NCBI GenBank assembly: GCA_913055805.1
Contig: CAJXLF010000004.1
Span: 1-64,000 of the forward strand
Length of the DNA: 64,000 nucleotides
From: an uncultured Salinisphaerales bacterium
Lineage (GTDB): Bacteria > Pseudomonadota > Gammaproteobacteria > Nevskiales > CAJXLF01
Reading direction: 5' to 3'
In this document: positions 25,315 to 63,879 of the stretch, one piece after another
How positions within the stretch are numbered: position 1 is the first letter of the stretch
How the letters are laid out: each line of letters opens with the position of its first letter
Translations under genes and position numbers: made by a program
The notes under the pieces: generated by a model
What the model was told of the DNA's origin: nothing
Databases searched by the model: none
What the model saw: the letters and a program-made list of their open reading frames with translations, nothing else

Positions 25315-25336
25315 GTCTATCTCCCCCGACAGAATG

Positions 25337-25368
25337 AAGGCGGGTGCGATCTTCGCCGCACCCGCCTT
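25337..25368 (-). terminator. Intercistronic hairpin between DUF1329 and DUF1302 genes
   Basis: A perfect 12-bp stem, AAGGCGGGTGCG-N8-CGCACCCGCCTT, lies between the DUF1329 stop and the DUF1302 start. On the minus strand no T-run follows, so it is more likely an attenuator or an mRNA-stability hairpin that raises DUF1329 relative to the genes behind it than a full terminator. Confidence 0.6.
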
Positions 25369-25375
25369 TAGCTGA

Positions 25376-26743
25376 TTAACGCGTAGTCCGCTTTTTCACC
25401 TGCTGTGCCTGGAATTGTTTTTCTTCGTATTCCGGCGTGAAGTCGTACGGCTTGTCCTCATTGATCATGGCCGTGGCGAAGTAGATGCCGGTCTGCAGGT
25501 CGTAGATGATTTCGGGAATGGTGGCGCAGGCGCGCACGTTCACCGAACAACCGAGGTGACCTTCCTGGAACTTGTAGTACTGGTCACGATGGTCGTAGTT
25601 GTCCAGCATCGTCGCAGTCCAGGTGTCTTCGTCGAAGTAGATCACTTTCTTCTTGAAGGTATGACGCACATCCGGTTTGTTGTTGGCTTCCACCACCCAC
25701 ACGCGGTGCACTTCGTAGCGCGCCAGGTCCTGGTTGATATGGCCCCTGTGCAGAATGTCGGCGTACTTCACGTCCGGGCTGTTGATGCGCGCGGAATTGT
25801 TCGGAATGATCATTTCCTTGCGGCCGATCAGCTTCCAGGTGAAGCGGTCCAGCTTGCCGTTGATCATATCCACCTGGTCGTAGAACTGCTGACCATCGGT
25901 ACCCTCATAGGGGTTGTCGTAGGCCACCGAAGGTGCGCGGCGAATGCGGCGCAGACCGGGGTTGTACAGCCAGGCATCACGGTAGTCGGCGTGTTCCCAG
26001 GCCAGCAGCAGCTGACCGGCATTACGTGGTGGCGCAATGGTTTCCGACAGGTACCACAGGAAGATATCGTCGCCCGTGTTCATGCTGCCCGGCTCTTCGA
26101 GATTGGCGTACTTGAACTTCACTTCCTCGATCAGCTTGGTGATCTGGTAGTCGCCGCTCTGCTGCACAATGGCCTGGTTGTTATAGCGCACCACGTTGTT
26201 GCCGCGCCATTTCAGGCGGTGGTTCCACCAGGGGTGCGCGCCGCTGGTCGGAATCGGGAACGGGAAACCCTGGGTCGCGTTGCGGATCTTGTCCGGGTCG
26301 CCGCCTTCCAGTTCGGTACGGGTGGCGTTTTCTATGGTGGATTTGTAGACCGCATCCGGCCAGGCGGCGTCACGATGCGAAGGGTACACATTCATCTTGT
26401 AGCTGTCGTACCGCTGCAGCATCTGCTTGTGACCCTCGGACAACAGGTCGGCATATTCCGCCATGTTGGCCTTGGTGATGGTGTAGAGCGGCTTCTCATC
26501 CGGGTAGCGGTCCTTGGGCCACTCGGGATCTTCCTTGATTTCAGGATAAGGCGTATAGGGTGTCCACTCCGGTACCGTGCCCCCTTCATTGCCCGCACGA
26601 ACGGCGCCGACCGGTGTCAGTTCGGTGCCTTCGATGCCAAGCTTGGCCGCCTCTTCGGGCGAGACCTTGGCCATGACCGGGGCCGCGGCAAATATCACCA
26701 GCAGACCGGCCATGAATGAATAAACAGACTTGTGAAAAGTCAT
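25376..26743 (-). CDS. DUF1329 periplasmic/outer-membrane lipid-handling protein
   Basis: A 455-residue DUF1329 protein with a cleavable signal sequence (SVYSFMAGLLVIFAAAPVMA). The family resembles LolA/LolB-like half-barrels that carry lipids. Hallmarks are EEAAKLGIEGTELTPVGAVR, YPSHRDAAWPD, W-K-L-I-G-R-K-E-M-I-I-P, YEVHRVWVVEAN and YFDEDTWTATMLDNYDHRDQ. ATG 26743 follows GGAGG. The gene leads the operon DUF1329-DUF1302-ligase-phaC-phaZ and has the shared AraC-type element 59 bp upstream. A paralogue lies at 47877, beside CYP51. Confidence 0.88.
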   Translation of the reverse strand: MTFHKSVYSFMAGLLVIFAAAPVMAKVSPEEAAKLGIEGTELTPVGAVRAGNEGGTVPEWTPYTPYPEIKEDPEWPKDRYPDEKPLYTITKANMAEYADLLSEGHKQMLQRYDSYKMNVYPSHRDAAWPDAVYKSTIENATRTELEGGDPDKIRNATQGFPFPIPTSGAHPWWNHRLKWRGNNVVRYNNQAIVQQSGDYQITKLIEEVKFKYANLEEPGSMNTGDDIFLWYLSETIAPPRNAGQLLLAWEHADYRDAWLYNPGLRRIRRAPSVAYDNPYEGTDGQQFYDQVDMINGKLDRFTWKLIGRKEMIIPNNSARINSPDVKYADILHRGHINQDLARYEVHRVWVVEANNKPDVRHTFKKKVIYFDEDTWTATMLDNYDHRDQYYKFQEGHLGCSVNVRACATIPEIIYDLQTGIYFATAMINEDKPYDFTPEYEEKQFQAQQVKKRTTR

Positions 26744-26801
26744 GACGTGCTCCTCCGTCAAAATGCGAGGAGGCATTATCTGCAGGCGGCGAACGGAAAA
26801 A

Positions 26802-26838
26802 TTGCCGCCAGATGACAATTTTTTGACTTGGCGCGACA
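26802..26838 (-). promoter_or_regulatory. Shared AraC-type regulon element, copy before the DUF1329-phaC operon
   Basis: Read on the minus strand: TGTCGCGCCAAG begins at 26838, a second TGTCA begins 21 bp later, and GGCAA ends at 26802. The inner part TTGTCATCTGGCGGCAA compares with TTGTCGTCTGAAGGCAA at 17452-17468. The element ends 59 bp before the DUF1329 ATG. It lies in the gap shared with the divergent GMC dehydrogenase gene at 26928, so it may control both. Confidence 0.75.
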
Positions 26839-26927
26839 GGGGCTTTCCTGCCCATGTCTTTGCGTTATCTTTCTGCCTGGAGTGAGAAAACAAACACCCA
26901 GGCTGTTAAAAGGACCAGGATCTGAAT

Positions 26928-33852: not shown

Positions 33853-35397
33853 TTATCGTCGCCGCCCGGAAGTGCTTTTCACGGCAGGATACGAGAATGC
33901 TTCTGTGGCAGCCCGGTTAGAGAGTGCAGGTTTTCCGTCAGGCGGTAATACGTCCTTCGACATAGCCGCTTCCAGTTCGTCGAGCGCCTCACTGGCATAG
34001 ACCGCCAGGCGTTGCAGATGCGGCAGACAGTCACGGCTGCCGGTGAATCCCACCGTGAGCTGGCCGTCGTAACTGACGCAGGAAATGTTCAGCGCCTGCC
34101 CCTGCATGGGAATCGACACCGGGTAGATGGCTTCCAGCCGGGCCCGGCCCATGTACAGCGTACGCTGCGGGCCTGGCACATTGGAGATCACCACGTTCAT
34201 CGGCGGCCGGACCTTCGCACCCTGCCCGCTGAGCAGCACGGCGATTGCAGGGGACATGGTCATCATGGTGAGCAGCGAACGCATGGAGCCCGGCAGGCTT
34301 TGCAGATGCCGTTTGCTGGCCTCCATGGAATCGCGAATCGTCTGCAGCCGCTCCAGCGGATCGGCGATATCGGTACCCAGCACCGACCACAGGAAGCCCA
34401 CGGCGTTACCGGCGTCTTCCTTTTTGCTGTCGGCACGCAGGCTGACCGGCACCCCGGCCACCAGTGAGCGGGCCGGCAATTGATGACTGTCCAGCAGATG
34501 CCGGCGCAGCGCGGCACTGCTGATAGCCAGGAAAACATCGTTGACCGAAGCCCCGGATGCGGCAGCCACTTTCTTTATGCGGCCCAGGTCCAGGCGCTGG
34601 GTCGCCACGCGGCGGGCGGCGGTCACGGAGCCATTAAGAATGCTCCGCGGTGCTTCAAAGGGCAGCCGGATAGGCTCAACCGCCCCGCCCCGCCGTAATA
34701 ATGGCAACCAGGCGTCCTTGACAGCCTTGGGCAGGCCCAGCGCAGACACCGTCTTGGCATCCCTTTTCGACTTGAACCTGTCTTTTTCCCTGGCATCGGC
34801 AGGCCGTTCTACATCCGCCCAGGGCGCTGTCCAGTTGTTTGCGCCCGGCGCATCGCCCAGGCAGCGGGTCAGCAGATGCATACCTTTCACGCCATCAATA
34901 ATCGTGTGATGAATCTTGGTGTAGAGCGCGAAGCGGTTCCCGGAAACGGCTTGACCGGTTTCCGGATCAATTGACGGGCCGAGACCTTCAATGACGTGAC
35001 AGGTCCACAGCGGCCGCGAACGGTCCAGGGTCACACTGTGCAGATGCGAGACCAGTTCGCCCAGCTCACGCTCACCACCGGGGGCCGGCAGACAGGTATG
35101 GCGCACGTGGTAATCCATGTCGATGTCGTCCGTCTCGACCATGGCCGGGGCCAGACGCGACAACGGCACCGGCGCCAGTTTCAGATTCCAGGGCCGGGCC
35201 AGCTTCTCCGGCCCGCGCAGGGTCTGCACCACGGACTTGATGAAATCCTTCGGCGCATTCTTCGGCAGCTGAAAGACCTGCAGGCCCGCCACATGTGTCG
35301 GCGTTTCGCGTCTTTCTATCTGCAGAAAGGTGGCGTCCAGCAATGACAGGCGCCGCGGTTTTTTCCTGGTTGCAGTTTTCATTGTTGAAGTACTCAT
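33853..35397 (-). CDS. Wax ester synthase/diacylglycerol acyltransferase (WS/DGAT)
   Basis: A 514-residue bifunctional acyltransferase. It has the catalytic HHTIIDG near residue 150, the N-terminal R-R-L-S-L-L-D-A-T-F-L-Q-I-E, PMNVVISNVPGPQ and a final segment S-Y-D-G-Q-L-T-V-G-F-T-G-S-R-D. It esterifies alcohols, diacylglycerol or possibly sterols with acyl-CoA to make neutral storage lipids. The start ATG 35397 overlaps the GMC oxidase stop (ATGA), so the two are translationally coupled and the oxidase's alcohol may be relevant to its substrate. The frame is open further upstream, but only antisense to conserved GMC codons. Confidence 0.93.
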   Translation of the reverse strand: MSTSTMKTATRKKPRRLSLLDATFLQIERRETPTHVAGLQVFQLPKNAPKDFIKSVVQTLRGPEKLARPWNLKLAPVPLSRLAPAMVETDDIDMDYHVRHTCLPAPGGERELGELVSHLHSVTLDRSRPLWTCHVIEGLGPSIDPETGQAVSGNRFALYTKIHHTIIDGVKGMHLLTRCLGDAPGANNWTAPWADVERPADAREKDRFKSKRDAKTVSALGLPKAVKDAWLPLLRRGGAVEPIRLPFEAPRSILNGSVTAARRVATQRLDLGRIKKVAAASGASVNDVFLAISSAALRRHLLDSHQLPARSLVAGVPVSLRADSKKEDAGNAVGFLWSVLGTDIADPLERLQTIRDSMEASKRHLQSLPGSMRSLLTMMTMSPAIAVLLSGQGAKVRPPMNVVISNVPGPQRTLYMGRARLEAIYPVSIPMQGQALNISCVSYDGQLTVGFTGSRDCLPHLQRLAVYASEALDELEAAMSKDVLPPDGKPALSNRAATEAFSYPAVKSTSGRRR

Positions 35398-37043
35398 GCC
35401 GCTTCCTCCATCGGCCGTCCCTTGCCCGACAATTCCTTGCGCGCCGGAATGAAGCTCATGGCGCGCTCGGCCAGTGCGGTGATGGTCAGGCTCGGGTTCA
35501 CACCCAGATTGGCGCTGAGCATGGAGCCGTCCACCACATACAGACCTCGGTAATTGAACACGCGGTTCTGCGCGTCGATCACACCTTTTTCGGGGCTGTC
35601 CGCCATGGCGCAGCCGCCCATGCAATGCGCGGTCATCGGCACGTTGAAGGCGATCTCACTCATCGAGCTGAGCGCCACACCGCCAGTCGCCTTGGCCGCT
35701 TTTTCGGTAAAGGCATTGGCCTCGGGAATGAAAGTGGGAATGCGTTCGCCGTGCGTAGTCAGCTTCTTGATAAACGGGAAATACCAGGGACGTTGCCAGC
35801 GGATGTCGATATGCCCGTCCAGGGTCTGCATCACCAGGAAGATCACCGTCTCACGCGACCAGCGCCAGGGCAGGATGGCGCGGATACCGTCGAGTGGACG
35901 CGTGACGAGCAGCTTCAGCATGGCCGCCAGCCAGTAAAGTACCCGGCTGGGGCCGGCACGACCGCCGGTCAACACAGTGAACAGGCTACTCATGAGATTG
36001 GAGCCGTCGGGATAGCGCACCGCTTCGATATGCGTGTGCTCGTCGATGTAGATACCCGAACCGATGGCAATGCCCTTGGACAGATCCTGCTGCGTACCTG
36101 GATAACGCACGCCCAGTATGGATTCCGCATTGGTGCGCACGCGCTTGCCCAGGTCATCGGAAATATTGGGCAGCGAACCGGCATCCTTGAGCCGGAACAA
36201 CAGTTCCTGGGTGCCGAGCGAAGAAGCGGCAAACACCACGTTCTTCGCCGTCAGCGTACTGCGCTTTTTGAAGAAGCGGGCGAAGGCCGGCACCGTGGTC
36301 ACAACATAACCGTCTACACCGTCGGCCTGACCTTTCAGGGGTTGTACATCGATGACTTTCGTTTCCGCCCGTACTTCAGCGCCCTGCTGTTCCGCCAGAT
36401 ACAAGTAGTTCTTGTCGAGGGTATTCTTGGCGCCGAAACGGCAACCCACCATGCAGCCGCCACAGGCCTGACAGGACTGGCGGACAGGGCCCTTGCCACC
36501 GAAGTACGGATCGGGATATTCGGTGCCCGGCGCATCGCCATCCTTGCCGAAGAATACGCCCACATCGGTGTAGTAGAAACTGTCTTCCACGCCGGCGGCT
36601 CGCGCCATTTCCTTGAGCTTTGCATCGGCCAGACCGGGGCGCTTGTTCTGCGTGACGCCCAGCATCCTTTTGGCCATGGCGTAGTGCTCGGGCATCTTCT
36701 CCTGCCACTGGTCAAGACCGGCCCAGTTGCCGTCGTTCCACACCGAATCCGGTGGCACCAGCAGAGTCTGGGCATAAGTAATGGATCCGCCGCCCACGGC
36801 ATTGCCGTGCAGGATCATCACATGCCTGAACAGACGCAGGCGCAGAAAACCTTTCAGCGACAGCAACGGCGCCCACAGATAATTCCAGAACTTCCAGTTG
36901 CTTTTGGGCAAGGTCTCGGGCGACCAGCGGCGACCCTGTTCGATGACCGCAACCTTGTAACCCTTCTCGGTCAACCGGTGCGCGGACACACTGCCGCCAA
37001 AGCCGGAGCCGACGATGATGTAATCGTAATCATGGGTTGTCAT
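35394..37043 (-). CDS. GMC oxidoreductase, cholesterol oxidase (ChoD)-like
   Basis: A 549-residue FAD enzyme. It has DYIIVGSGFGGSVSAHRLTE at the N-terminus, the Cys-rich CQACGGCMVGCRFGAKNTLD typical of the ChoD-like branch of GMC proteins, and the C-terminal ALSSMSEIAFNVPMTAHCMG and GCAMADSPEKGVID with the active-site His, then NPSLTITALAERAM. Family members are called cholesterol oxidases, but many act on other hydroxylated lipids. ATG 37043 follows GGAGG. The shared AraC-type element lies 56 bp upstream, and WS/DGAT follows with a 4-bp overlap. Confidence 0.9.
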   Translation of the reverse strand: MTTHDYDYIIVGSGFGGSVSAHRLTEKGYKVAVIEQGRRWSPETLPKSNWKFWNYLWAPLLSLKGFLRLRLFRHVMILHGNAVGGGSITYAQTLLVPPDSVWNDGNWAGLDQWQEKMPEHYAMAKRMLGVTQNKRPGLADAKLKEMARAAGVEDSFYYTDVGVFFGKDGDAPGTEYPDPYFGGKGPVRQSCQACGGCMVGCRFGAKNTLDKNYLYLAEQQGAEVRAETKVIDVQPLKGQADGVDGYVVTTVPAFARFFKKRSTLTAKNVVFAASSLGTQELLFRLKDAGSLPNISDDLGKRVRTNAESILGVRYPGTQQDLSKGIAIGSGIYIDEHTHIEAVRYPDGSNLMSSLFTVLTGGRAGPSRVLYWLAAMLKLLVTRPLDGIRAILPWRWSRETVIFLVMQTLDGHIDIRWQRPWYFPFIKKLTTHGERIPTFIPEANAFTEKAAKATGGVALSSMSEIAFNVPMTAHCMGGCAMADSPEKGVIDAQNRVFNYRGLYVVDGSMLSANLGVNPSLTITALAERAMSFIPARKELSGKGRPMEEAA

Positions 37044-37098
37044 TGAATGCTCCTCCATTCGCTGAGGAGGCATTATTCGCTTTCAGGGGAACAGAAGA

Positions 37099-40957: not shown

Positions 40958-43402
40958 TTATTCGGCGAAGATGCCGAAGGCGGGTGAAGTCCAGCCGAGA
41001 CCGGAATACTCAGGCGCTGCGGGCAGCGGCTTGCCGCCGTACACCACGTTGCCCTGGTCGTCCGAATACACCAGCCAGGGCACGGTCTTCTGCTTGTCCA
41101 CACCTGGCTGACTGTAGTCACAGACGCCGTCAGGAAACGCTTCCTGCAGCTGCGCCCACTCCTCGTCGCTGAATCCGATTGGACCATAGTCATCGCTGCG
41201 GTCCAGCGGTTTCAGCTGGCAGCTGTGATCGTCATAGGTGCCCGATTGCCCGGCGATGCCGCGCGGCGTGGTGAACTCGGTACGCAGCGTGTCACCCACC
41301 AGACCGGCGCCGCAGACTGCTCCCAGCACCGGATCAACGACCAGACGCAAGGCAGGATTGAGCGCCGGGTCCAGACCTGCATGCGCAGCAAACAGAATCG
41401 GTCCCAGCACGGGTCCGAACAACTGATTCAAGGTGGGTTGCAGCAGCGGCAGCTGGATGCCCTCGGGTGCGGTCAATGCTGAAGCAGCACTGCAACGATC
41501 ATGCAGATCGCCGGGGCGATTCTGCAGGATCTTTTCGGCCAGCGGCACATCCCGCTCGTCTGCTTCCACGGCCGACAACCAGCGGTCCATGGCCAGCAGG
41601 GCCTCGGAGGAGTAATTGGGATCGCCGATCAGCGGCGTCTGACCGAACCAGATGACATGGTTGTCGAAATGACCCTGTTCACGCAGCAAACGCCCACGCA
41701 TGGCCCAGGCCCATTGCGCATCATGCGCGATGCCGGGATCAGGGCCGCCGTGATCAATGATGGCTACGGTGTCGAGCTGACTGGCGCTGTTGAGCCAGCC
41801 GGTCCGGTACATATTGCCCAGCGCCGGGTCATCCGCATGCAGGCGGGTTTCCACCGCTTCGGCATTAATGTCCAGCCCGCCGATCTTGCTGTTCAGGTCC
41901 ACGAACATGGCCGGGGTAATGACGCCGGCGCGCAGCGCCTCCAGACCATACTGGATGCCCTGACCATCCACCGGCAGACCGGCGAAACCGCGGCCGAGCA
42001 TGACCTCGTTGTCTGACCAGACTTCGGGCTGACGCGGGCCGAACAGGTTGATAAGCAGGTCGAAGACACTGCAGCGCACGCCGGAGGGATTGGTTTCGGG
42101 GTGATAGCCGATGTCCTCGCCCACATGGCCGCAGCCGGGCTTGGGATCGACTGCCCGCTTGAACAGGCCTTCGTCCATGACGATGGCATTCACCGGCAGG
42201 ATATGACCCTCCACCGCCGACCACTGCGTGGGCGACCAGACGATGCCCTCGCCCCAGCGGGTCGGGTCCTCGAAGTAGCGCCGCAGCATGTGATAGTCGT
42301 AGGCCTGCGCGCCCGGTGAAGCCGTATCCGGGTAGGAGCAGGTCACGATCAGACCCTGGTAGATGCCGGGATAGGCATTGGCCACGGTCTGCTGGGCAAT
42401 CGAGCCGCCGGAGCAACCCGAACCGATGGTGTAACGCAGCGGGCCGTAATGCTCGATCAAATGTTCCTTGGCCATCATCAGCGACTCGGCGTTCATGGCC
42501 ACGCTGCAGTTATGCCCGGTGTTGGCCAGCGCGGTGGACATGACGGCAAAGCCTTTGCCCAGCGCCACAGTCGGGCTGTCGCCAACGGTGACCGGTACTT
42601 CCGGCGGAATGAAATCAAAAGTGCCGGAATAATCGGTTTTAGGCGCCCCGCCGACACCATAGGAGGCCCCGCAGCCACCGCCATGCGGCACGAACACCTT
42701 GCCGTTCCACTGCGCCTGCGGCGCCCAGGGCTGCCAGTCCTGGGCTGGATCAAACAGCACCGCAATGCGGTACTGGTCACGATCCTGGTAGCCGATTTCC
42801 TCGCGCACAATGAAGGGTACGGTAACGCCGTGATCGGTGGTGGTCTGCGCCACATCGGTAGGGGGATTGTCAGGATCGTAGGGCAGCAACCCGGCATTCA
42901 GCGGATTCGAGGACTTGTAGAAATAGCTGAAAACCGGCGCCTGATTACAGTGCTCATCTTCTGCGCCTTCCTGACATGCCCAGGGCTGCACCTGCGGACC
43001 TGAGAACACCGGACCGCCGTTCGGATGATTAATGATTTCGGCGGTGGCATTAGCGCCGGGCAGCTGGGCGACAAAACTGTTCTTGCCCAGTTGCAGCCCC
43101 GTCACCAGGCCGCGCAGATTGCCGTCATCCGTCAGGGCAAAGACGCTGCTGACGTCGCTGCCATTGAGCCGCATGCCGACGTTGTCCGGATTCGCCCCTT
43201 CGGGCACCAGCACCTCAATCAGGACATCGCCGCCACTGATCAGATCGGCACGGTTTGAAAGCACATGAATGGACGAGGAACTGGCCAGCTGGCTGCCGCC
43301 ACCCGCCGATGAATCGTCGTCATTATCGCCACCACCACAAGCGGACAGGCCTGTCATGGAAGAAAAAACCAGCGCCAGCCACAGGCCGTATTTATAGGAC
43401 AT
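40958..43402 (-). CDS. DUF6351 esterase-like lipoprotein
   Basis: An 814-residue exported protein with signal and lipobox (FSSMTGLSACGGG, Cys near residue 22). The N-terminal domain (about 45-120) looks beta-rich; the rest has an alpha/beta-hydrolase look, with F-V-P-H-G-G-G-C-G-A, TIGSGCSGGSIAQQTVANAY (nucleophile Ser in GCSGG near residue 330) and I-I-D-H-G-G-P-D. It matches family DUF6351, whose substrates are unknown; tannase- or esterase-like action on a bulky ester is plausible. Its place in the sterol-type run suggests release of esterified or conjugated sterol outside the cell. GGGGGAG precedes ATG 43402. Confidence 0.78.
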   Translation of the reverse strand: MSYKYGLWLALVFSSMTGLSACGGGDNDDDSSAGGGSQLASSSSIHVLSNRADLISGGDVLIEVLVPEGANPDNVGMRLNGSDVSSVFALTDDGNLRGLVTGLQLGKNSFVAQLPGANATAEIINHPNGGPVFSGPQVQPWACQEGAEDEHCNQAPVFSYFYKSSNPLNAGLLPYDPDNPPTDVAQTTTDHGVTVPFIVREEIGYQDRDQYRIAVLFDPAQDWQPWAPQAQWNGKVFVPHGGGCGASYGVGGAPKTDYSGTFDFIPPEVPVTVGDSPTVALGKGFAVMSTALANTGHNCSVAMNAESLMMAKEHLIEHYGPLRYTIGSGCSGGSIAQQTVANAYPGIYQGLIVTCSYPDTASPGAQAYDYHMLRRYFEDPTRWGEGIVWSPTQWSAVEGHILPVNAIVMDEGLFKRAVDPKPGCGHVGEDIGYHPETNPSGVRCSVFDLLINLFGPRQPEVWSDNEVMLGRGFAGLPVDGQGIQYGLEALRAGVITPAMFVDLNSKIGGLDINAEAVETRLHADDPALGNMYRTGWLNSASQLDTVAIIDHGGPDPGIAHDAQWAWAMRGRLLREQGHFDNHVIWFGQTPLIGDPNYSSEALLAMDRWLSAVEADERDVPLAEKILQNRPGDLHDRCSAASALTAPEGIQLPLLQPTLNQLFGPVLGPILFAAHAGLDPALNPALRLVVDPVLGAVCGAGLVGDTLRTEFTTPRGIAGQSGTYDDHSCQLKPLDRSDDYGPIGFSDEEWAQLQEAFPDGVCDYSQPGVDKQKTVPWLVYSDDQGNVVYGGKPLPAAPEYSGLGWTSPAFGIFAE

Positions 43403-43448: not shown

Positions 43449-43468
43449 GCCACGGCCCCTGCCGTGGC
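43449..43468 (-). terminator. Hairpin after the cycloisomerase-like gene
   Basis: A perfect 8-bp stem GCCACGGC-CCCT-GCCGTGGC lies 17 bp past the stop at 43486. On the minus strand AATATTCTTG follows, which is AT-rich but not a T-run. Partial termination between the cycloisomerase-like and DUF6351 genes is likely. Confidence 0.5.
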
Positions 43469-43485: not shown

Positions 43486-44277
43486 CTAGAGTCGGCCGAC
43501 CAGCCGTGCCGCCATGTCCAGCAGGTAGAAAGTCAGCATGGAAGCGCTCAGGCCGCCGGCCACCGTCTGCAGCAGACTCCAGCTTTTCTCCCGGGTTTCA
43601 TCCAGGAAGTAATAGATGGGGAAGCTGGCAATAAAATAGGTGGCGTAGATGGCCGAACCGTAAGCCAGCATCAGTTCCATTTTTTCGTAATGGAAGTTCT
43701 CCGCAATCAACGGATTGGCCATGGCGCGGGTTTCCATCCAGGCCCAGGCATAACCGATGAGGAATACAAAAAGCGGGAATAACAGCCACTTGAACGGCGC
43801 CAGGCTGTTGAGCTTGCGCAGGGCGATATTGGCCGTGGCGTGATAGGTCATGAAGTACACATGCGTGTAGGCATACATGATCAGCGGCACCACCTGCTCA
43901 CCGCTGCCGACCAGCGCCGAATCCAGGTTGCTGGTGATGTTGGGGTAGGTATAGACCATGCCCAGTACATCGAAAAAATACTCGCTGCCGAAGTAGTTGC
44001 CGAAGAAGCCGAAGATGAAAATATAGAGATTGGCCTTGAACCAGTAGCTCTGGTGCCAGGGCTTGTCCGTGTAGCGCCGGGCAACCAGCATCGGGATGAT
44101 GAAAGCCGGCATGGCCGTGGCAAAGGCATGCAGCAGCATGGCCGTATCGCCCCAGACCGCGCCCCAGCCGGTGAGCATCATCATGGCCATGGAGGCCATC
44201 CAGACCGGCGAGTAGAGCAGGAAGAATTTCTCTACCCAGGCCTTGTCGGGATTTTCGGAAAACCAGTTGTTTTTCAT
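43486..44277 (-). CDS. Cycloeucalenol cycloisomerase (CPI1)-like membrane protein
   Basis: A 263-residue polytopic membrane protein with about six helices. It aligns along its whole length with what I know of plant cycloeucalenol cycloisomerase (about 280 residues): S-E-N-P-D-K-A-W-V-E-K-F-F-L-L-Y-S-P-V-W at the start, A-M-P-A-F-I-I-P-M-L, Y-W-F-K-A-N-L-Y-I-F, GNYFGSEYFFDVLGMVYTYP, THVYFMTYHATANIALRKL, W-M-E-T-R-A-M-A-N and AIYATYFIASFPIYYFLDE. The plant enzyme opens the 9-beta,19-cyclopropane ring of cycloeucalenol, giving obtusifoliol. ATG 44277 follows GAGAGGGTGAT; a frame extension upstream lies in a dispersed repeat. It sits three genes below CYP51. Confidence 0.85.
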   Translation of the reverse strand: MKNNWFSENPDKAWVEKFFLLYSPVWMASMAMMMLTGWGAVWGDTAMLLHAFATAMPAFIIPMLVARRYTDKPWHQSYWFKANLYIFIFGFFGNYFGSEYFFDVLGMVYTYPNITSNLDSALVGSGEQVVPLIMYAYTHVYFMTYHATANIALRKLNSLAPFKWLLFPLFVFLIGYAWAWMETRAMANPLIAENFHYEKMELMLAYGSAIYATYFIASFPIYYFLDETREKSWSLLQTVAGGLSASMLTFYLLDMAARLVGRL

Positions 44278-44280
44278 ATC

Positions 44281-44362
44281 ACCCTCTCCCCAATCCTCTC
44301 CCCTCAAGGGAGAGGGAGGTTAATGGTTCTCCCCCTCCCTTGAGGGGGTCAGGGGGAGGGGG
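44281..44362. repeat. Dispersed palindromic repeat (CCCTCTCCC/GGGAGAGGG type)
   Basis: Inverted pyrimidine-rich and purine-rich runs (CCTCTCCCCTCAAGGGAGAGG, and further on CTCCCCCTCCCTTGAGGGGG) fill the gap between the SnoaL-like and cycloisomerase-like genes. Related units are at 46062-46155, 46428-46480 and 62872-62912. The unit appears to supply the purine-rich ribosome site of the cycloisomerase-like gene. Confidence 0.75.
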
Positions 44363-44364
44363 AA

Positions 44365-45018
44365 TCACTTACCGGTCATGGCGATTTTCACCATCGCCAT
44401 GAAGTTCCTGAGCTTCTCAGCCTTGCCCGGCTCCGGCCGGATACGCCGGTGGCCCGGCATCAGCTTGCCCTTGGCCTGCAGGTGGATTTTTTCCTTCACC
44501 ACCGGGGCCAGTACACCCGACCCGGCCAGTTCGAAGAAAACGGCCTTGGCATTGCCCAGGTCGAAGAAGTCGCGCTGCCATTCCCACTGGTAGTTGCCGG
44601 CGTACTGGAACCAGGAACCGCCGATGCCCTCGATGCAGATCTGCGAGCCGTCCTTGCGCTTGTACGGCGACACCTGGCGCCAGAAGCCGACGACGCTGCC
44701 ACGTTTTTCGTCGATGATGACATCGTGATAGGGATACTCCCATTCCTCGAAACCCTTCATCTGGTAACCCAGCGCGACATCGCAGATTTCCTGGCGGCCA
44801 TCGGCCACGAACTGTTCGTTCGGTCCGATATTCCACTCGTAGACCGCGTTCTCGGTGTACATGGGGCCCAGGTACCTGGTCCAGTTGCCTTCCCTCTCGG
44901 CGTCAACGTTGGCCTGCAGCCAGCGCTTGAGCATCTCTTCCATTTCCTCGCGGGGGAAGGCCCTGGTCGGCGGGGTGATCGAGGGACAGCGTTTGTCCTT
45001 GAATACCTTTTCGGACAT
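44365..45018 (-). CDS. SnoaL-like / NTF2-fold protein of the sterol-type cluster
   Basis: A 217-residue protein with an NTF2-like core (about residues 25-150): MLKRWLQANVDAEREGNWTR, YTENAVYEWNIGPNEQFVADG and IIDEKRGSVVGFWRQVSPYK with W-Q-R-D-F-F-D-L-G-N-A. A basic C-terminal tail of about 60 residues follows. The fold is shared with ketosteroid isomerase and limonene epoxide hydrolase, so a sterol isomerase or carrier role fits the neighbours, but the active-site residues cannot be matched. AGGAGA precedes ATG 45018. It lies 8 bp below the SDR gene. Confidence 0.78.
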   Translation of the reverse strand: MSEKVFKDKRCPSITPPTRAFPREEMEEMLKRWLQANVDAEREGNWTRYLGPMYTENAVYEWNIGPNEQFVADGRQEICDVALGYQMKGFEEWEYPYHDVIIDEKRGSVVGFWRQVSPYKRKDGSQICIEGIGGSWFQYAGNYQWEWQRDFFDLGNAKAVFFELAGSGVLAPVVKEKIHLQAKGKLMPGHRRIRPEPGKAEKLRNFMAMVKIAMTGK

Positions 45019-45026
45019 GGTTTCTC

Positions 45027-46058
45027 CTAGGGGTGCACCGCAACGCGTGGCGCAAATTTTGTTTTCAGGTGACCGGACGCGGCCAGCCACCTGACGGTGT
45101 CGGTCAGGGTGTCTGCCGGTTCGCGGAAATGCAGTCGGCTGTGACGCAGGTATTTTTCCGAGCTGGCCGGCGTCCACTGGGTGACATATCCCATGGCCTC
45201 GACCGAGATCGGTGTTTCAAAGGGAACGATCTTCTTGAGCAGGTCCATCACCTGTCCCATGGCGCGGAAGACCGGTCCGGGTATCGGCAGGCTGAACAGG
45301 CGGCGGCCGGTGACCGCCTCCAGTTTCTGCCGCAGTTCCGGCCAGGGGTAATAGTGGCCGCCGATGATGTAGCGGGCGTCTTCGAAATCGCCGGTGGCAG
45401 GATGTTCCAGCAGATAGCGATGCGCCTCGGCCAGGTCTCGCACGTCCACGCACTGAAAGCCGGTAGTGGTATTGGGGATCATCTGCGAGATGAACTGGGC
45501 AAAGGCGTGGTTGGCTTCACTCAGCTTCGGATCGTCCGGCCCGACAATGGCGCTGGGGTAGGTCACCTGCACGGGACAACCCCGCGCCTGCAACCCGCGC
45601 ACGTATTCATCGCTGTCGCGCTTGGAACGGGAATAGGCTTCGCGGGTGTTGGCCAGCGGCGTGGTCTCGTTGATCTCGTCGAATCCGGTCTGCATCAGCA
45701 CGCTGAGACTGGAGACATACACGATGTTGCGGATGCCCAGGTCGCAGGCGGAGCCGATGACGGCCTTCATTCCGCCGACGTTGTTTTCGTAGGTTTGCTG
45801 CGCCTTGCGCGGATCCAGCGACACGGCCGCGGCGGCATGCAGCACGGCGTCACAGCCGACCATGCCCTGGCGGATCGCGTTTTCGTCGCACATGTCCGCG
45901 ACGACGAAGTCGCTGACCTCATGACCGTGCCGGCTGAAATAGGTCCTGGCCGCATCGGGGTTGCGCACCAGCAGGCGCAGTTCGTGACCGGCGTCCAACA
46001 GGGAGCGCGCAGTATGCGCGCCGACGAATCCCGTCCCGCCCGTGAGAAAGATTTTCAT
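45027..46058 (-). CDS. Extended SDR, 3-beta-hydroxysteroid dehydrogenase/sterol dehydrogenase-like
   Basis: A 343-residue NAD(P)-dependent epimerase/dehydratase-type protein. It has the N-terminal FLTGGTGFVGAHTARSLLDA, VLHAAAAVSLDPRKAQQTYE, V-Y-V-S-S-L-S-V-L and the active-site A-Y-S-R-S-K. The C-terminal part resembles 3-beta-HSD-like proteins, which oxidise the 3-hydroxyl of sterols; in bacterial C4-demethylation a reductase of this fold (SdmB) acts with a Rieske oxygenase, but no Rieske gene is seen here. It is next to CYP51 on the same strand. Confidence 0.82.
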   Translation of the reverse strand: MKIFLTGGTGFVGAHTARSLLDAGHELRLLVRNPDAARTYFSRHGHEVSDFVVADMCDENAIRQGMVGCDAVLHAAAAVSLDPRKAQQTYENNVGGMKAVIGSACDLGIRNIVYVSSLSVLMQTGFDEINETTPLANTREAYSRSKRDSDEYVRGLQARGCPVQVTYPSAIVGPDDPKLSEANHAFAQFISQMIPNTTTGFQCVDVRDLAEAHRYLLEHPATGDFEDARYIIGGHYYPWPELRQKLEAVTGRRLFSLPIPGPVFRAMGQVMDLLKKIVPFETPISVEAMGYVTQWTPASSEKYLRHSRLHFREPADTLTDTVRWLAASGHLKTKFAPRVAVHP

Positions 46059-46061
46059 CTA

Positions 46062-46155
46062 ATCCCCTCTCCCTTCCAGGGAGAGGGATAGGGTGAGGGT
46101 AGGCAGTCCACCGTTACCCCTCACCCCCACCCTCTCCCCTGAGCGTAGAGGGAGT
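46062..46155. repeat. Dispersed palindromic repeat reaching into the 3' end of the CYP51 gene
   Basis: Runs CCCCTCTCCC...GGGAGAGGGA at 46073-46090 and CCCCTCACCCCCACCCTCTC...TAGAGGGAG at 46117-46152 form inverted pairs of the same type as at 44281. The second part is translated: it encodes the CYP51-ferredoxin tail L-R-G-E-G-G-G-E-G before the TAA at 46114-46116. Confidence 0.75.
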
Positions 46156-47850
46156 TTCCCCTTCCAGCCTCAGGGCTTGGGTCGGGCAATACTTCACTGC
46201 GTCCTCGACCTTGGCGCGCTCCTCATCCGTGACCGTTTCCTTGATGACTTGCAGCACGCCGTCCTCGCCTACCCTGAAGTGCTTTGGTGACTCGCCCATG
46301 CACACGGCATGGCCCTGGCAGAGTTCGCGGTCCACGATGACCTTGAGTTCGACAACCTTCGGCTTCTCCTGCACATGGAAAGGACAGCCTTGGGCCGATG
46401 CTTCCGACTGGCCGGCACTGCCGACTTGCCCCCACCCCTTCCCTCCCTCGCTTGCGGGGGAGGGTGAGGGAGGGGGTCCACGGCGCCGGTAGCGCACCCG
46501 GCAGGGCGTGACCGGCTGCACGATCATGTCCTTGTAGTTGTCGACATAACTGTCCGGCGCATCGACCAGTTCGAACTCGTAGCGCCGCAACAGCACGGCG
46601 AAAATCGCCTTGATCTGGAACTGTGCGAAGGCATTGCCCGAGCACTTGTGCTTGCCGCCGCCAAACGGCTGGTAGGCCATGAGGTTCTTGTCCTCACGCC
46701 GTTCCGGCGAATACCGGTTCGGGTCAAACACCTGTGGATTGCTGAACAGCTTCGACATGCGATGCGTCACCGGCGGGCTGGCCCAGACCATGTCGCCGGC
46801 CTTGATACGGTAGTCCCTGAAGTGCAGGTCTTCGGACACCTGCCGCATCAGAATAATGAGCGGCGGATGCAGGCGCAGCACCTCCTTGACCACGTTTTCC
46901 AGCACCGGTACCTCACGCAAACTCTGAAAAGTCACCTCGCCTTTCTCGCCCAGCAGCTCATCCAGTTCCTGCCGGGTTTCGCGCAGAAACGCCGGGTTCC
47001 TGAGCAGTTCCAGCAGCACCCAGGCAGCGGTGCCGGAACTGGTGTGGTGCCCGGCAAAAATGGCGCCGATGAGCATGCCGGTGATTTCGTTATCAGTGAG
47101 CGGAGTACCGTCGTCATAGCGCATGTCGATCAGCGACTGGAACATGTCATGCGGTTTTTCGGCCTGGGCTTCGCGTTTCTTGATAATGGCGCCCACCAGT
47201 TCCTGCAACCGCTTGCGGGCACGGTCGCGGCGGCGGAATTTGGGAATGGGCAGATAGGGAAAATGGTAGGCCAGCGGACTCACGCCCTGTTCCAGGTCGT
47301 GATAGATATGGGCGAATTCCTCATTCAGCTCATAACGGAACTCGCGACCCAGCAGACAGTGGCTGGCGGTGTTGATGGTGAGCTGTTTCATGAACTCGAC
47401 CAGCTCGATTTCACCCGCCTCACCCCAGTCGGCAATGATGTCCTCCACTTCCTGCACGATCTTCTGCGAGTGATTGCGCATGGCATCAATACGCAAGGAG
47501 GGCATCAACGCCTTGAGCTGCTGGTCCTTCTTCTCCAGCGGTGCGTCGAATACCAGCCCCTCGCCGAAGATGGGGGTCATGAGTTTGTAGGCGGCGGACT
47601 GGTCCAGCTGCTCGTCACTGGAGCGGTAGAAAAGTTCGCTGGCCTCGTCGCCCGTAAGCAGCACGATCTTCTGCCCCAGCAGCGTGAAGGCAGCGATTTC
47701 GCCGGCCTCGTCAGCCACCTTCTGCACAAACCGGTAGGGATTCGTGGCGAAGGGAATCATGTGGCCGACCCAGGGCAGGCCACCCTTCATGTGCGGCGGC
47801 TCATTACCGGTGCTGAGGTGGTCCGATGCCGGCAGGCTCTTGCTTGTCAT
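46114..47850 (-). CDS. cyp51: CYP51 sterol 14-alpha-demethylase fused to a [3Fe-4S]-type ferredoxin
   Basis: A 578-residue fusion. Residues 1-452 are a cytochrome P450 of family CYP51: Y-K-L-M-T-P-I-F-G-E-G-L-V-F-D (substrate site 1), the CYP51 I-helix signature AGHHTSSGTAAW near 265, ExxR in KEVLR, LHPPLIILMR, and FGGGKHKCSG with the haem Cys near 403. Residues about 500-563 are a ferredoxin with C-x5-C (511, 517) and Y-C-P (555). CYP51 removes the 14-alpha-methyl of sterols by three oxidations; the ferredoxin supplies electrons, as in the CYP51-ferredoxin fusion known from Methylococcus capsulatus. The linker (about 457-474) and tail are encoded by a dispersed repeat. GAGGGCG precedes ATG 47850. 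Confidence 0.95.
   Translation of the reverse strand: MTSKSLPASDHLSTGNEPPHMKGGLPWVGHMIPFATNPYRFVQKVADEAGEIAAFTLLGQKIVLLTGDEASELFYRSSDEQLDQSAAYKLMTPIFGEGLVFDAPLEKKDQQLKALMPSLRIDAMRNHSQKIVQEVEDIIADWGEAGEIELVEFMKQLTINTASHCLLGREFRYELNEEFAHIYHDLEQGVSPLAYHFPYLPIPKFRRRDRARKRLQELVGAIIKKREAQAEKPHDMFQSLIDMRYDDGTPLTDNEITGMLIGAIFAGHHTSSGTAAWVLLELLRNPAFLRETRQELDELLGEKGEVTFQSLREVPVLENVVKEVLRLHPPLIILMRQVSEDLHFRDYRIKAGDMVWASPPVTHRMSKLFSNPQVFDPNRYSPERREDKNLMAYQPFGGGKHKCSGNAFAQFQIKAIFAVLLRRYEFELVDAPDSYVDNYKDMIVQPVTPCRVRYRRRGPPPSPSPASEGGKGWGQVGSAGQSEASAQGCPFHVQEKPKVVELKVIVDRELCQGHAVCMGESPKHFRVGEDGVLQVIKETVTDEERAKVEDAVKYCPTQALRLEGETPSTLRGEGGGEG
46428..46480. repeat. Dispersed palindromic repeat inserted in frame in the CYP51-ferredoxin linker
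   Basis: CCCCACCCCTTCCCTCCCTC ... GGGGGAGGGTGAGGGAGGGG forms an inverted pair around CGCTTGCG. It matches the intergenic repeats at 44281, 46062 and 62872 in composition and form but lies inside the coding sequence, giving a Pro/Ser/Gly-rich stretch (P-P-P-S-P-S-P-A-S-E-G-G-K-G-W) between the two folded domains. Confidence 0.75.
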
Positions 47851-47876: not shown

Positions 47877-49235
47877 CTACTGACCGAGACGGGCAGCCAC
47901 TTCCGGACTGAACATCTGCTTGCGCATGGGTGTGTTCAGACGCCACCAGTCCTTGGACTCGTTGACCAGATAGGTCGCCTCATACGCGCCCGAGGTCAGG
48001 TCATGAAACATCGACACGCCACGGTGGTAGGTGCCGGATTCCTGCGAATAGAAATAGGCGATCCAGTTCACCCGCCAGAGCTGATCCTGATTGTCGTAAC
48101 TCTCGGAGAGATGACCCAGCCAGGTGTCCTCATCGGCATAGATGCGCCGCTTCTTGTACACATGGCGCACGCCGTCCTTCAGATAACCTTCCACCACCCA
48201 GACCCGGTGCAGCTCATAGCGCAGGTAATCGGGATTCAGGGTGTTCGGCGTAATCAGGTCCTTGTAGGGCACCGCCGGATCATTGATCCTGTAGTTGTGG
48301 TGCGGGATGTAGATTTCCTTCTTGCCCACCAGTTTCCAGGTATAGCGTTCCGGCGAACCGTTGTAGATGTAGTCATCGTCCGAAGTGCGCAGCCCGGCCG
48401 GCGGCACCGGATAGTCGAAGCCGACTTCGGGCGCCTTTCTGACCCGGCGGATACCGGGCTGGTATTGCCAGGCCTGGGTCGCATTGCCCTTGTAATTACT
48501 GGGCTGGTAGCCGACGCTGATCTCGCCTTTCTGACGGGAGGGCAACAGCATCTGAATCAGGAAATAACCTTCCACCGGATGCGTGTAGGGCACACGCTCA
48601 CCCGGGTTCGGGTTGGTGCCGGTGTTCATGACCTGGAAGTCCCAACGTCCCCAGGCAACCTCACCGTTTTCATAGACGTCCGCGATATCGAACACCACCT
48701 TCTCGGTCCAGGCCCGGTGCGGCTTGATGATGTTCCAGATGGCTTCCAGCCCGGTTTCGGGAAAAGCGAAGGGATGCACGCCACTGGTGCCTTCCAGCCC
48801 CAGCCCTTCATCCACAATCTTCGCTTCCGTCACATTGCTGCGCAGCGCATCACAGACCCAGTCGGCAAAACGGAAATCCCGGTGACTGGGATAGACATGC
48901 ATTTTGAAGGTATCGGGATACTTGGCGAACATGGCCTTCTGGCCTTCGCTGAGGTGCGTGGCATGCTCGGCCATATTGCTGGCGGTAATCGTGAACAGCG
49001 GCTTTTCGTCGGCGTAGGGACCCGGTTCGTAGCCATGCTCCGAATTCACGCCAGGCCAGGCCTTGAACCATTTGCCGCTGTACTCGGCCACGCCGTTTTC
49101 TGAACCCGCGCGCTCGGCGCCCATGCAGGTATATTGGTCGCTGTCCAGCTTGGCCAGGTCTTCCGCCGGGTCCGCCGAGGCAATGGTCATGCCCCAGAGC
49201 GGCAAGCTCAACGCCGCCACCTTGACTAGTCTCAT
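47877..49235 (-). CDS. DUF1329 protein of the sterol-type cluster
   Basis: A 452-residue DUF1329 protein, paralogue of the product at 25376, with a signal sequence (VAALSLPLWGMTIASA). Shared features are E-R-A-G-S-E-N-G-V-A-E-Y, YPSHRDFRFADWVCDA, W-K-L-V-G-K-K-E-I-Y-I-P, YELHRVWVVEGYL and YADEDTWLGHLSESYDNQDQ. It should sit in the periplasm or at the outer membrane and handle a hydrophobic compound. It is the first gene of the minus-strand run containing CYP51 (26-bp gap), under a 20-bp palindrome at 49297. No DUF1302 partner is adjacent here. Confidence 0.87.
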   Translation of the reverse strand: MRLVKVAALSLPLWGMTIASADPAEDLAKLDSDQYTCMGAERAGSENGVAEYSGKWFKAWPGVNSEHGYEPGPYADEKPLFTITASNMAEHATHLSEGQKAMFAKYPDTFKMHVYPSHRDFRFADWVCDALRSNVTEAKIVDEGLGLEGTSGVHPFAFPETGLEAIWNIIKPHRAWTEKVVFDIADVYENGEVAWGRWDFQVMNTGTNPNPGERVPYTHPVEGYFLIQMLLPSRQKGEISVGYQPSNYKGNATQAWQYQPGIRRVRKAPEVGFDYPVPPAGLRTSDDDYIYNGSPERYTWKLVGKKEIYIPHHNYRINDPAVPYKDLITPNTLNPDYLRYELHRVWVVEGYLKDGVRHVYKKRRIYADEDTWLGHLSESYDNQDQLWRVNWIAYFYSQESGTYHRGVSMFHDLTSGAYEATYLVNESKDWWRLNTPMRKQMFSPEVAARLGQ

Positions 49236-61832: not shown

Positions 61833-62867
61833 TCAGGCGCTGGCGGCCTGGCGTTCCTTCGCCATGGTCAGGGCGCAGTCCTCGATCATGTCTTCCTGGC
61901 CACCAACCATCTTGCGACGACCGAGTTCGAGCAGGATCTCACGAGCGGAGATGCCGTACTTTTCTTCTGCCCGCTTGGCGAACAGCAGGAAGGACGAGTA
62001 CACACCGGCGTAGCCCAGGGTCAGGGCGTTGCGGTCGATACGTACCGGGAAGTCGAGGATCGGCGTGACCAGATCCTCGGCCACGTCGGAAATCTTGAAC
62101 ACGTCAACGCCGGTTTCAATGCCCATGCGATTGCATACCGCCACGAACACCTCCATCGGTGTGTTGCCGGCGCCGGCGCCCATGCCACCGCAGGCGCAGT
62201 CGATACGATTGGCTCCCGCTTCCACCGCGGCAATGGAATTCGCCACACCCATCGCAAGGTTGTGGTGACCATGGAAGCCGATCTCGGTGTTCGGATTGGC
62301 TTTTTCACGCAACAGGCCCACGCGGGCTTTCACGTCATCCGGCAGCATATAGCCTGCCGAGTCGGTCACATACAGGCAGTTGGCGCCGTAGCTTTCCATG
62401 AGCAGGGCCTGCTCGACGATTTCCTCGGGCGAAATCATATGCGCCATCATCAGGAAGCCTACGGTATCCAGGCCCATCCTGGCACCCAGATTGATGTGCT
62501 GTTCGGAAACGTCGGCCTCGGTGCAATGCGTAGCCACGCGGATGGTGGTCACGCCGCAATCGGCGGCCATCTTCAGATGATCCACCGTACCAATGCCCGG
62601 CAGCAGCAGGGCAGAAACCTTGGCCTGCTTGAGGTGCGGAATCACCGCGCGCAGGTATTCCTCGTCGGTTGCCGCCGGAAAACCGTAGTTCACCGAAGCG
62701 CCGCCCAGGCCATCGCCATGGGTGACTTCGATCAGCGGTACGCCGGCAGCGTCCAGACCCTGCGAGATGCTCTGCATCTGCTCAATCGTGATCTGGTGCC
62801 TCTTGGGATGCATGCCGTCACGCAACGACATGTCATGCACTGTTACTTTTCTACCTTCAAGATTCAT
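61833..62867 (-). CDS. dmpG: 4-hydroxy-2-oxovalerate aldolase
   Basis: A 344-residue class II aldolase of the DmpG/BphI/HsaF family, at the usual length. Hallmarks are [16 protein letters not shown] at residues 9-24 (Arg and Asp of the active site), [20 protein letters not shown]-type strand [22 protein letters not shown] (metal His pair) and [14 protein letters not shown]. It splits 4-hydroxy-2-oxo acids to pyruvate and an aldehyde, passed by tunnel to the dehydrogenase encoded upstream. This is the end step of meta-cleavage of aromatic or steroid A-rings. The start follows a purine-rich GGGGAAAAGAA. Confidence 0.93.
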
Positions 62868-62871
62868 TTCT

Positions 62872-62912
62872 TTTCCCCCTCACCCCAACCCTCTCCCGCC
62901 AGGGGAGAGGAG
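62872..62912. repeat. Dispersed palindromic repeat between the aldolase and dehydrogenase genes
   Basis: CCCCCTCACCCCAACCCTCTCCC followed by GGGGAGAGG is the same unit type as at 44281, 46062 and 46428. It sits at the 5' end of the aldolase gene and provides its purine-rich ribosome site. Confidence 0.7.
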
Positions 62913-62936
62913 TTTGCTGCGGCGAGTTATTGACCC

Positions 62937-62964
62937 ATCTGTGTAATCTGTGAAATCTGTGGAT
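62937..62964. repeat. 28-bp repeat ATCTGTG type, left copy
   Basis: ATCTGTGTAATCTGTGAAAT... (28 bp) is a perfect inverted copy of 63888-63915. The two copies flank the acetaldehyde dehydrogenase gene exactly: this one lies 6 bp past its stop. The unit itself contains three tandem ATCTGTG-like steps. Confidence 0.85.
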
Positions 62965-62970
62965 TCAGCC

Positions 62971-63879
62971 CTATGCGGCTGGCTCGAAACTCAGCCGACC
63001 CGCCAGCATATCTTCAGCGAACATTTCGGCGGTGCGTGCCGCGGCGGCGGTCATGATGTCCAGGTTGCCGGCGTACTTGGGCAGGAAGTCGCCCAGGCCC
63101 TCCACCTCCACATAGGTCGTCACACGGTTGCCGTCGAACACCGGGCCGTTGACCAGCCGGTAGCCGGGCACGTATTTCTGCACCTCGGCAATCATGTCGT
63201 GCACGGACTTCGTGATGGCCTCCTGATCCGGCGCGTCCTCGGTCAGGCAATGAATGGTGTCACGCATGATCAGCGGCGGCTCGGCCGGATTGATCACGAT
63301 AATGGCCTTGCCCTGCTTGGCGCCGCCCACTTTCTCCACCGCGCCGGCAGTGGTGCGGGTGAACTCGTCGATGTTCTTGCGCGTGCCGGGGCCGACGGAT
63401 TTCGAAGCGACGGTGGCGACGATTTCGCCATACTTCACCGGCTGCACGCGGGACACGGCAGCGACCATCGGGATGGTGGCCTGACCGCCGCAGGTGACCA
63501 TGTTCACATTACGCTCATGACCACCAGCGTGATCCTTAAGATTCACGGGTGGCACGCAGTAGGGACCAATCGCTGCCGGGGTGAGATCAATCATCATCAC
63601 GCCCAGCGCGGTCAGCTTGTCGGAGTTTTCCTTGTGCACGTAAGCGCTGGTGGCGTCGAAGGCGATGCGGATTTCGTCTTCCTTTACATGCGGCACCAGG
63701 CCGTCTACACCTTCATGCGTGGTCTTCAGGCCGGCATCGCGGGCGCGGGCCAGGCCCTCGCTTTCCGCCTCGATACCCACCATCCAGGCCGGCTCCAGTA
63801 CCTCGGAACGCCGCAGCTTGTACAGCAGGTCGGTGCCGATATTGCCGGAACCGATAATGGCGCATTTGATCTTGCTCAT
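62971..63879 (-). CDS. dmpF: Acetaldehyde dehydrogenase (acylating)
   Basis: A 302-residue CoA-acylating aldehyde dehydrogenase of the DmpF/BphJ/HsaG family: [15 protein letters not shown] at the NAD site, [12 protein letters not shown] with the active-site Cys near residue 130, [12 protein letters not shown] and [14 protein letters not shown]. It turns acetaldehyde or propionaldehyde from the aldolase into acyl-CoA. The start ATG 63879 has no ribosome site: the ATCTGTG repeat abuts it (ends 8 bp away), suggesting the repeat replaced the leader. Confidence 0.94.

Follow-up and report, generated by a model that had tools for sequence, protein, structure and literature searches.

CPI1, cycloeucalenol cycloisomerase, is known from plants and protists that start their sterols from cycloartenol; here we describe a predicted bacterial counterpart, encoded on the minus strand (43486-44277) of a 64,000-nucleotide stretch of DNA from an uncultured Salinisphaerales bacterium (contig CAJXLF010000004.1, hereafter C4, bases 1-64000; this whole stretch is called the window). 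The plant enzyme was described by Lovato et al. (2000, cited in PMC8172173), and the family also has members in protists such as Dictyostelium. In plant sterol synthesis CPI, the sterol 14α-demethylase CYP51 and a C14 reductase act consecutively (PMC12667688). In Methylococcus, an NTF2-type protein, 8,14-Bsr, turns the CYP51 product, a Δ8,14 diene, into a Δ8(14) sterol (Lee, Giner and Welander 2026, PMC13277303). According to the same study, CYP51 and Bsr serve sterol synthesis in methanotrophs, and the pair is also found in sterol degraders of the Mycobacteriales, where it is proposed to act on exogenous lanosterol.

In the window, the CPI1-like gene lies in a likely operon with genes for a CYP51-ferredoxin fusion, an extended short-chain dehydrogenase/reductase (SDR) and a predicted 8,14-Bsr. 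We propose that this operon is an entry cassette that converts exogenous 9,19-cyclosterols into catabolisable sterols, a reading to which we assign a probability of about two-thirds (0.66).

A bacterial homologue of plant CPI1

Over its whole length the window protein matches Arabidopsis CPI1 in blastp (145 bits, with 34% identity across 267 aligned positions); the plant reference was typed in rather than taken from a database, and the comparison counts as a lead. Nevertheless, it does not seem plausible that a 145-bit match to this reference arose by accident. Bacterial relatives are 27-40% identical to the same reference, and an alignment of the window protein with 12 of these relatives and the plant row contains 41 invariant columns. 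These comparisons agree with a preliminary description of the locus, made from the sequence alone, in which the likeness to CPI1 was said to extend along the whole protein. As judged by sequence, then, the gene encodes a full-length homologue of the plant cycloisomerase, and we infer both its reaction (protonation of the 9,19-cyclopropane with loss of H-8) and its substrate.

In the predicted structure the protein is membrane-embedded and built of helices, about seven of which are long (predicted local distance difference test score, pLDDT, 82.5). When this model was compared with solved structures, nothing convincing was found (best Foldseek E-value 2.4, best VIA-align Z-score 4.1), and such poor matches of a predicted model do not prove a new fold. 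Scans with Pfam and NCBIfam returned no CPI1 model matching the protein. Our literature search, which left subscription papers mostly outside, found no account of a bacterial CPI1, and an earlier description is possible. Carriage of the gene by viruses was considered and rejected, since the two peptide patterns used found no relative in viral contigs.

CYP51 and a predicted 8,14-sterol reductase

The preliminary description placed the CPI1-like gene three genes below a clear CYP51 fused to a ferredoxin, on the same strand, with an SDR and an NTF2-type protein between them, and all four genes are present in that order (Table 1). The best solved-structure matches of the P450 are all CYP51s, first among them the CYP51-ferredoxin fusion 6mcw (648 bits, covering both domains) and after it M. 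tuberculosis CYP51 (445 bits), and its translation contains the I-helix motif AGHHTSSGT and the haem-thiolate motif. These matches mark it as a true CYP51 with predicted 14α-demethylase activity. Obtusifoliol-specific CYP51s carry Phe at a substrate-linked position; there the window protein has Leu and its relatives mostly Leu or Met, which would fit, as a weak indication, a substrate range that includes 4,4-dimethyl sterols.

What the preliminary description had called an NTF2-fold protein appears to supply the next step. The pocket residues named for 8,14-Bsr are Y37, Y43, Y78, Y80, D133 and D136 (PMC13277303), and the window protein has all six, with spacing exactly as published. Proteins 65% and 57% identical to it, from two gammaproteobacterial genomes that are methanotroph-like by gene content, hold the six residues at the published numbers themselves. 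In the window, as in relatives, the gene is one gene away from the ferredoxin-fused CYP51. The structure model of 8,14-Bsr is of low quality (pLDDT 40, built with 5 sequences), and the assignment of an NTF2 fold to the window protein rests on the published family together with a weak, below-cut-off match of an orthologue to SnoaL_2 (E 1.1e-4). We take the protein to be a homologue of the 8,14-sterol reductase, with its reductase function predicted. Because CPI, CYP51 and C14 reductase act consecutively in plants, the operon would cover three consecutive steps, namely cyclopropane opening, 14-demethylation and Δ14 reduction. The SDR encoded between CYP51 and Bsr, which matches two NCBIfam models below their cut-offs (165 bits to HpnA, 95.5 bits to SdmB), is predicted to act as a 3β-hydroxysteroid dehydrogenase or in a C4-decarboxylase-like step.

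Synthesis or degradation

The preliminary description left open whether cyclopropane opening and 14-demethylation would belong to the bacterium's own sterol synthesis or would make plant and algal precursors degradable. For de novo synthesis one can cite the succession of CPI, CYP51 and C14 reductase in the plant pathway (PMC12667688) and the use of CYP51 and Bsr for synthesis in methanotrophs (PMC13277303). We nevertheless regard it as very improbable. No squalene epoxidase or sterol cyclase had been noted in the window, and this holds for the host genome (3.38 Mb, 95.7% complete): two models (PF13243 and TIGR01787) found no squalene or oxidosqualene cyclase anywhere in it, and the sole squalene epoxidase match is weak (34 bits) and of a kind that also occurs in E. 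coli and Caulobacter. Likewise, no oxidosqualene cyclase (OSC) was found in the Gamma- and Alphaproteobacteria that have the CPI operon. With the genome-wide cyclase searches empty, own synthesis was rejected.

The catabolic gene set points the other way. A GMC-type cholesterol oxidase gene (35394-37073) and HsaF- and HsaG-type genes (61833-63879), absent from the preliminary description, lie in the window itself; HsaE- and HsaD-like genes sit just past its end, and KshA is encoded further along the contig. A cluster on contig C12 encodes an HsaC-like dioxygenase, FadD3 (699 bits, cut-off 657), a lipid-transfer thiolase (707 bits, cut-off 424), an enoyl-CoA hydratase (384 bits, cut-off 260) and a ketosteroid dehydrogenase-like flavoprotein. 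Because it lacks a cyclase but has cholesterol oxidase, KshA, HsaC/D/E/F/G-like genes and FadD3, the genome looks like that of a sterol degrader rather than a maker. Thus, of the two branches originally offered, sequence and gene context favour degradation, and own synthesis did not survive the cyclase searches.

The same genes bear on a further possibility, in which the cassette would modify scavenged sterols for use in membranes or storage, or render them harmless, with no tie to breakdown. A precedent of sorts comes from mycobacteria, which require neither CYP51 nor Bsr for viability or for pathogenicity (PMC13277303), and a gene for a wax ester synthase/DGAT-type acyltransferase at 33853-35625 would be in keeping with storage. 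However, cholesterol oxidase and ring-cleavage genes occur in the same genome, partly in the same window, and HsaC and HsaD are found within Myxococcota clusters, so we consider remodelling quite unlikely.

Distribution of the CPI family

When 84,980 species genomes were scanned, within the limits of the two peptide patterns used, 85 CPI loci were found, of which 80 were kept. They come from Gammaproteobacteria, Alphaproteobacteria (Zavarzinia and sphingomonads), Myxococcota and Chloroflexota. The CPI tree contains two large bacterial clades, with the window in clade A; the Arabidopsis CPI1 reference branches off close to the base of that clade, with a long branch and weak support. A CYP51 gene lies on the same strand, no more than 3.6 kb upstream, in 31 of the 36 testable clade A loci (from Gammaproteobacteria, Alphaproteobacteria and Myxococcota), and Bsr is present in 23, whereas in clade B CYP51 and Bsr were each found in 1 of 27 loci. 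Because the order recurs across phyla, the gene set is not a product of chance; its conservation as an operon in several phyla adds to what the preliminary description had seen at this locus. Cultured species that share the operon include Zavarzinia aquatilis, Stenotrophobium rhamnosiphilum and Spongiibacter pelagi.

The family also keeps company with genes of steroid breakdown. An HsaC-like gene was found in 36 of 44 clade A genomes versus 0 of 14 control genomes, and among 85 genomes of the host's order KshA_C scored over its cut-off in all 17 that carry CPI versus 31 of the 68 that do not (p 1.5e-5, uncorrected for kinship). In one Myxococcota locus (L075) the genes run Rieske, regulator, CYP51, Bsr and CPI, and genes resembling HsaC and HsaD lie a further 4-6 kb downstream. 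A second locus (L121) has the same two genes downstream.

Clade B proteins (L090, L097-L099, L103-L118, L122-L125) are 33-42% identical to the window protein and are encoded without CYP51 or Bsr neighbours. In Solimonas and Nevskia the gene is about 1-3 kb from one for a KshA-like Rieske oxygenase, and in Haliea and Spongiibacteraceae relatives it adjoins an extended SDR gene; the role of these proteins may differ from that in clade A. A further clade B gene, accompanied by CYP51 and a Rieske oxygenase, was found in a record titled as a Klebsiella pneumoniae metagenome-assembled genome (MAG) (L091, CAMAXE010000001.1), which is probably a mislabelled MAG.

Proposed pathway and its main rival

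In the pathway that we propose, exogenous plant or algal 9,19-cyclosterols (cycloartenol, 24-methylenecycloartanol or cycloeucalenol) would enter, and the CPI1 homologue would open the ring by protonating the cyclopropane with loss of the C8 proton, giving Δ8 sterols. CYP51, with electrons from its fused ferredoxin, would then take off the 14α-methyl group to leave the Δ8,14 diene, which 8,14-Bsr would convert into a Δ8(14) sterol. Cholesterol oxidase and/or the SDR would oxidise C3, other enzymes would carry out C4-demethylation and side-chain removal, and the nucleus would pass to KshA, 3-ketosteroid dehydrogenase, HsaC/D/E/F/G and the C/D-ring enzymes. We infer that the products of the cassette flow into this 9,10-seco route.

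The main rival does without a cyclopropane: the CPI homologue could be a double-bond isomerase whose substrates, with or without the 14-methyl group, already have an opened ring. It might, for instance, move a Δ8 or Δ8(14) bond, and the cassette would then serve lanosterol-type sterols. In its favour, Bsr and CPI genes are immediate neighbours in this order in many loci, and a Mycobacterium given lanosterol is described, in work cited in PMC13277303, as making a Δ8(14) C19 steroid, whose double bond would need handling. The OSCs of CPI-bearing Myxococcota also fit, being of the lanosterol type: all seven read VSDCTAE, not ISDCTAE, and on that ground we rejected the idea that CPI tracks cycloartenol synthesis in this phylum. 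In two Polyangia MAGs (G090 and G092, loci L126 and L131) the OSC reading frames are 1145-1159 aa long, far above the 634 positions of the model; these may be fusions, or the frame may simply stay open.

Double-bond isomerisation sits less well with several loci that have CPI directly beside CYP51 without Bsr, and with one genome (G044) in which CPI occurs with CYP51 and Bsr has no match genome-wide. The plant enzyme that the CPI homologue resembles over its full length has a single known reaction. In addition, a lanosterol-type producer cluster in a methanotroph-like genome (G381) contains CYP51-ferredoxin, Bsr and an OSC with VSDCTAE, but no CPI within 20 kb. A producer cluster without CPI, and gamma- and alphaproteobacterial CPI-operon genomes without OSC, are what would be expected if CPI serves exogenous cyclosterols. 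Weakened by G044 and by the CPI-less producer cluster, the isomerase explanation seems to us rather unlikely.

Several observations weigh against an entry cassette for cyclosterols. The support for the activity of the CPI homologue comes from sequence and context, with a plant reference that is no database record. Seven Myxococcota genomes hold a CPI family member together with a lanosterol-type OSC (five of them also with an HsaC-like gene), and two Chloroflexota CPI genes have no adjoining CYP51. HsaC (271 bits) and HsaD (189 bits) of the host are clear homologues that score under the strict cut-offs of 450 and 400. Plant CPI1 acts poorly on 4,4-dimethyl cyclosterols (PMC12667688), and the host genome contains no clear C4-demethylation enzyme and no SdmA or SdmB member that we could find, so that the order of the steps is unsure. 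Ring cleavage should need the C4 methyls removed. Near KshA, the products of C4:74808-75812 (a Rieske protein) and C4:72409-73410 (an SDR) are no more than candidates for C4-demethylation. Membership in SdmA/SdmB was rejected, with 65 bits for the Rieske protein and 95.5 and 193 bits for the SDRs against 600-bit cut-offs (NF052579, NF052578).

Operon layout and neighbouring genes

Table 1. Features of the window and of the adjoining part of contig C4
Feature	Position	Strand	Basis
DUF1329 protein (LolA-like)	47877..49235	(-)	Pfam PF07044, 361 bits
CYP51 sterol 14α-demethylase (predicted activity) with C-terminal single-cluster ferredoxin fusion, 578 aa	46114..47850	(-)	solved-structure match 6mcw; Pfam p450, Fer4_15
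Extended SDR, HpnA/SdmB-like, 343 aa	45027..46058	(-)	Pfam Epimerase, 3Beta_HSD
NTF2/SnoaL-type protein, predicted 8,14-sterol reductase (8,14-Bsr), 217 aa	44365..45018	(-)	six pocket residues
CPI1-like membrane protein, predicted cyclopropyl-sterol isomerase, 263 aa	43486..44277	(-)	homology to the typed-in Arabidopsis CPI1 reference
Terminator-like hairpin, 8-bp stem with 7 G-C pairs, directly 3' of the CPI gene	43449..43468	(-)	consensus scan only; hairpin count not above shuffled sequence
Cholesterol oxidase, GMC type	35394..37073	(-)	NCBIfam NF058674 equivalog (ChoxAB), 1013.8 bits, cut-off 850
4-hydroxy-2-oxovalerate aldolase, HsaF type	61833..62867	(-)	TIGR03217 equivalog, 556.7 bits, cut-off 286
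Acylating acetaldehyde dehydrogenase, HsaG type	62971..63879	(-)	TIGR03215 equivalog, 478 bits, cut-off 282
KshA, 3-ketosteroid 9α-hydroxylase	C4:76060-77160		PF19298, 253 bits; solved KshA, 361 bits

The genes for DUF1329, CYP51, SDR, NTF2-type protein and CPI are separated by gaps of 26, 55, 8 and 87 bp, and because these are short the five minus-strand genes are likely one operon. The DUF1329 gene, 26 bp upstream of CYP51, is probably its first member; it stands upstream of CYP51 in some relatives too, with 63-70% identical neighbours in L031/L048, L033 and L034. At the other end, the CPI gene is likely to start at the ATG at 44277 rather than at the TTG at 44307 given by the open reading frame finder.

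Past the terminator-like hairpin, at a distance of 83 bp from the end of the CPI gene, lies a gene for a large DUF6351 tannase-like protein (40958-43402, minus strand, 709 bits), which may be a secreted esterase that acts, for instance, on sterol esters. A DUF1302/DUF1329 pair at 22924-26893 (minus strand), of a kind that recurs near the CPI loci of relatives, and the acyltransferase gene mentioned above, on the same strand, are possible parts of sterol uptake and storage. G+C-rich inverted-repeat elements of one kind occur at 44282-44317, 46065-46139 and 62877-62912, including between operon genes, and a similar G+C-rich stretch at about 46380-46490 seems to encode the segment that links P450 and ferredoxin (GPPPSPSPASEGGKGWG).

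Significance and comparison with known systems

If our reading is right, the operon offers a genetic handle on the breakdown of cycloartenol-type sterols, which carry both the cyclopropane and the 14-methyl group. The bacterial proteins would also be material for the study of a membrane enzyme family for which we found no solved structure. The presence of CYP51, 8,14-Bsr or CPI1 in a genome would then not have to mean sterol synthesis, which matters for biomarker and early-eukaryote arguments, and the bacterial family would bear on the origin of eukaryotic CPI1. More tentatively, and with somewhat less than even confidence, we suggest that a horizontally shared cassette of CPI1, CYP51 with ferredoxin, 8,14-Bsr and often an SDR lets at least two bacterial phyla mineralise plant and algal 9,19-cyclosterols, and that the CPI1 which eukaryotes use in making phytosterols is itself one branch of the bacterial family.

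With the plant system the locus shares full-length homology (34%, to the typed-in reference), invariant residues and CYP51 as the next step. Unlike plant CPI1, the window protein is bacterial; its gene shares a likely operon with CYP51 and with a C14 reductase not homologous to the plant one, and the genome around it lacks cycloartenol synthase and contains genes of sterol degradation. Its substrate here is a predicted one. The Mycobacteriales resemble it in combining CYP51 and Bsr in a sterol-degrading bacterium, but no CPI was found there by the pattern-bound scan. The mycobacterial ferredoxin is separate rather than fused to CYP51. The Methylococcaceae have the same fused CYP51 and the same Bsr with all pocket residues (PMC13277303), but their system has an OSC and no CPI, whereas the window has CPI, and its genome has no cyclase and looks like a degrader's. 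Proteins of kinds related to SdmA and SdmB of methanotrophs, one Rieske oxygenase and several extended SDRs, are encoded in the operon or 25-30 kb off, but they score far below the family cut-offs and are not members. Finally, the host genome has in common with 9,10-seco sterol degradation KshA, HsaC/D/E/F/G-like genes, FadD3 and cholesterol oxidase; the known route begins with 14-desmethyl sterols, and the cassette would widen its range to 9,19-cyclo, 14-methyl sterols.

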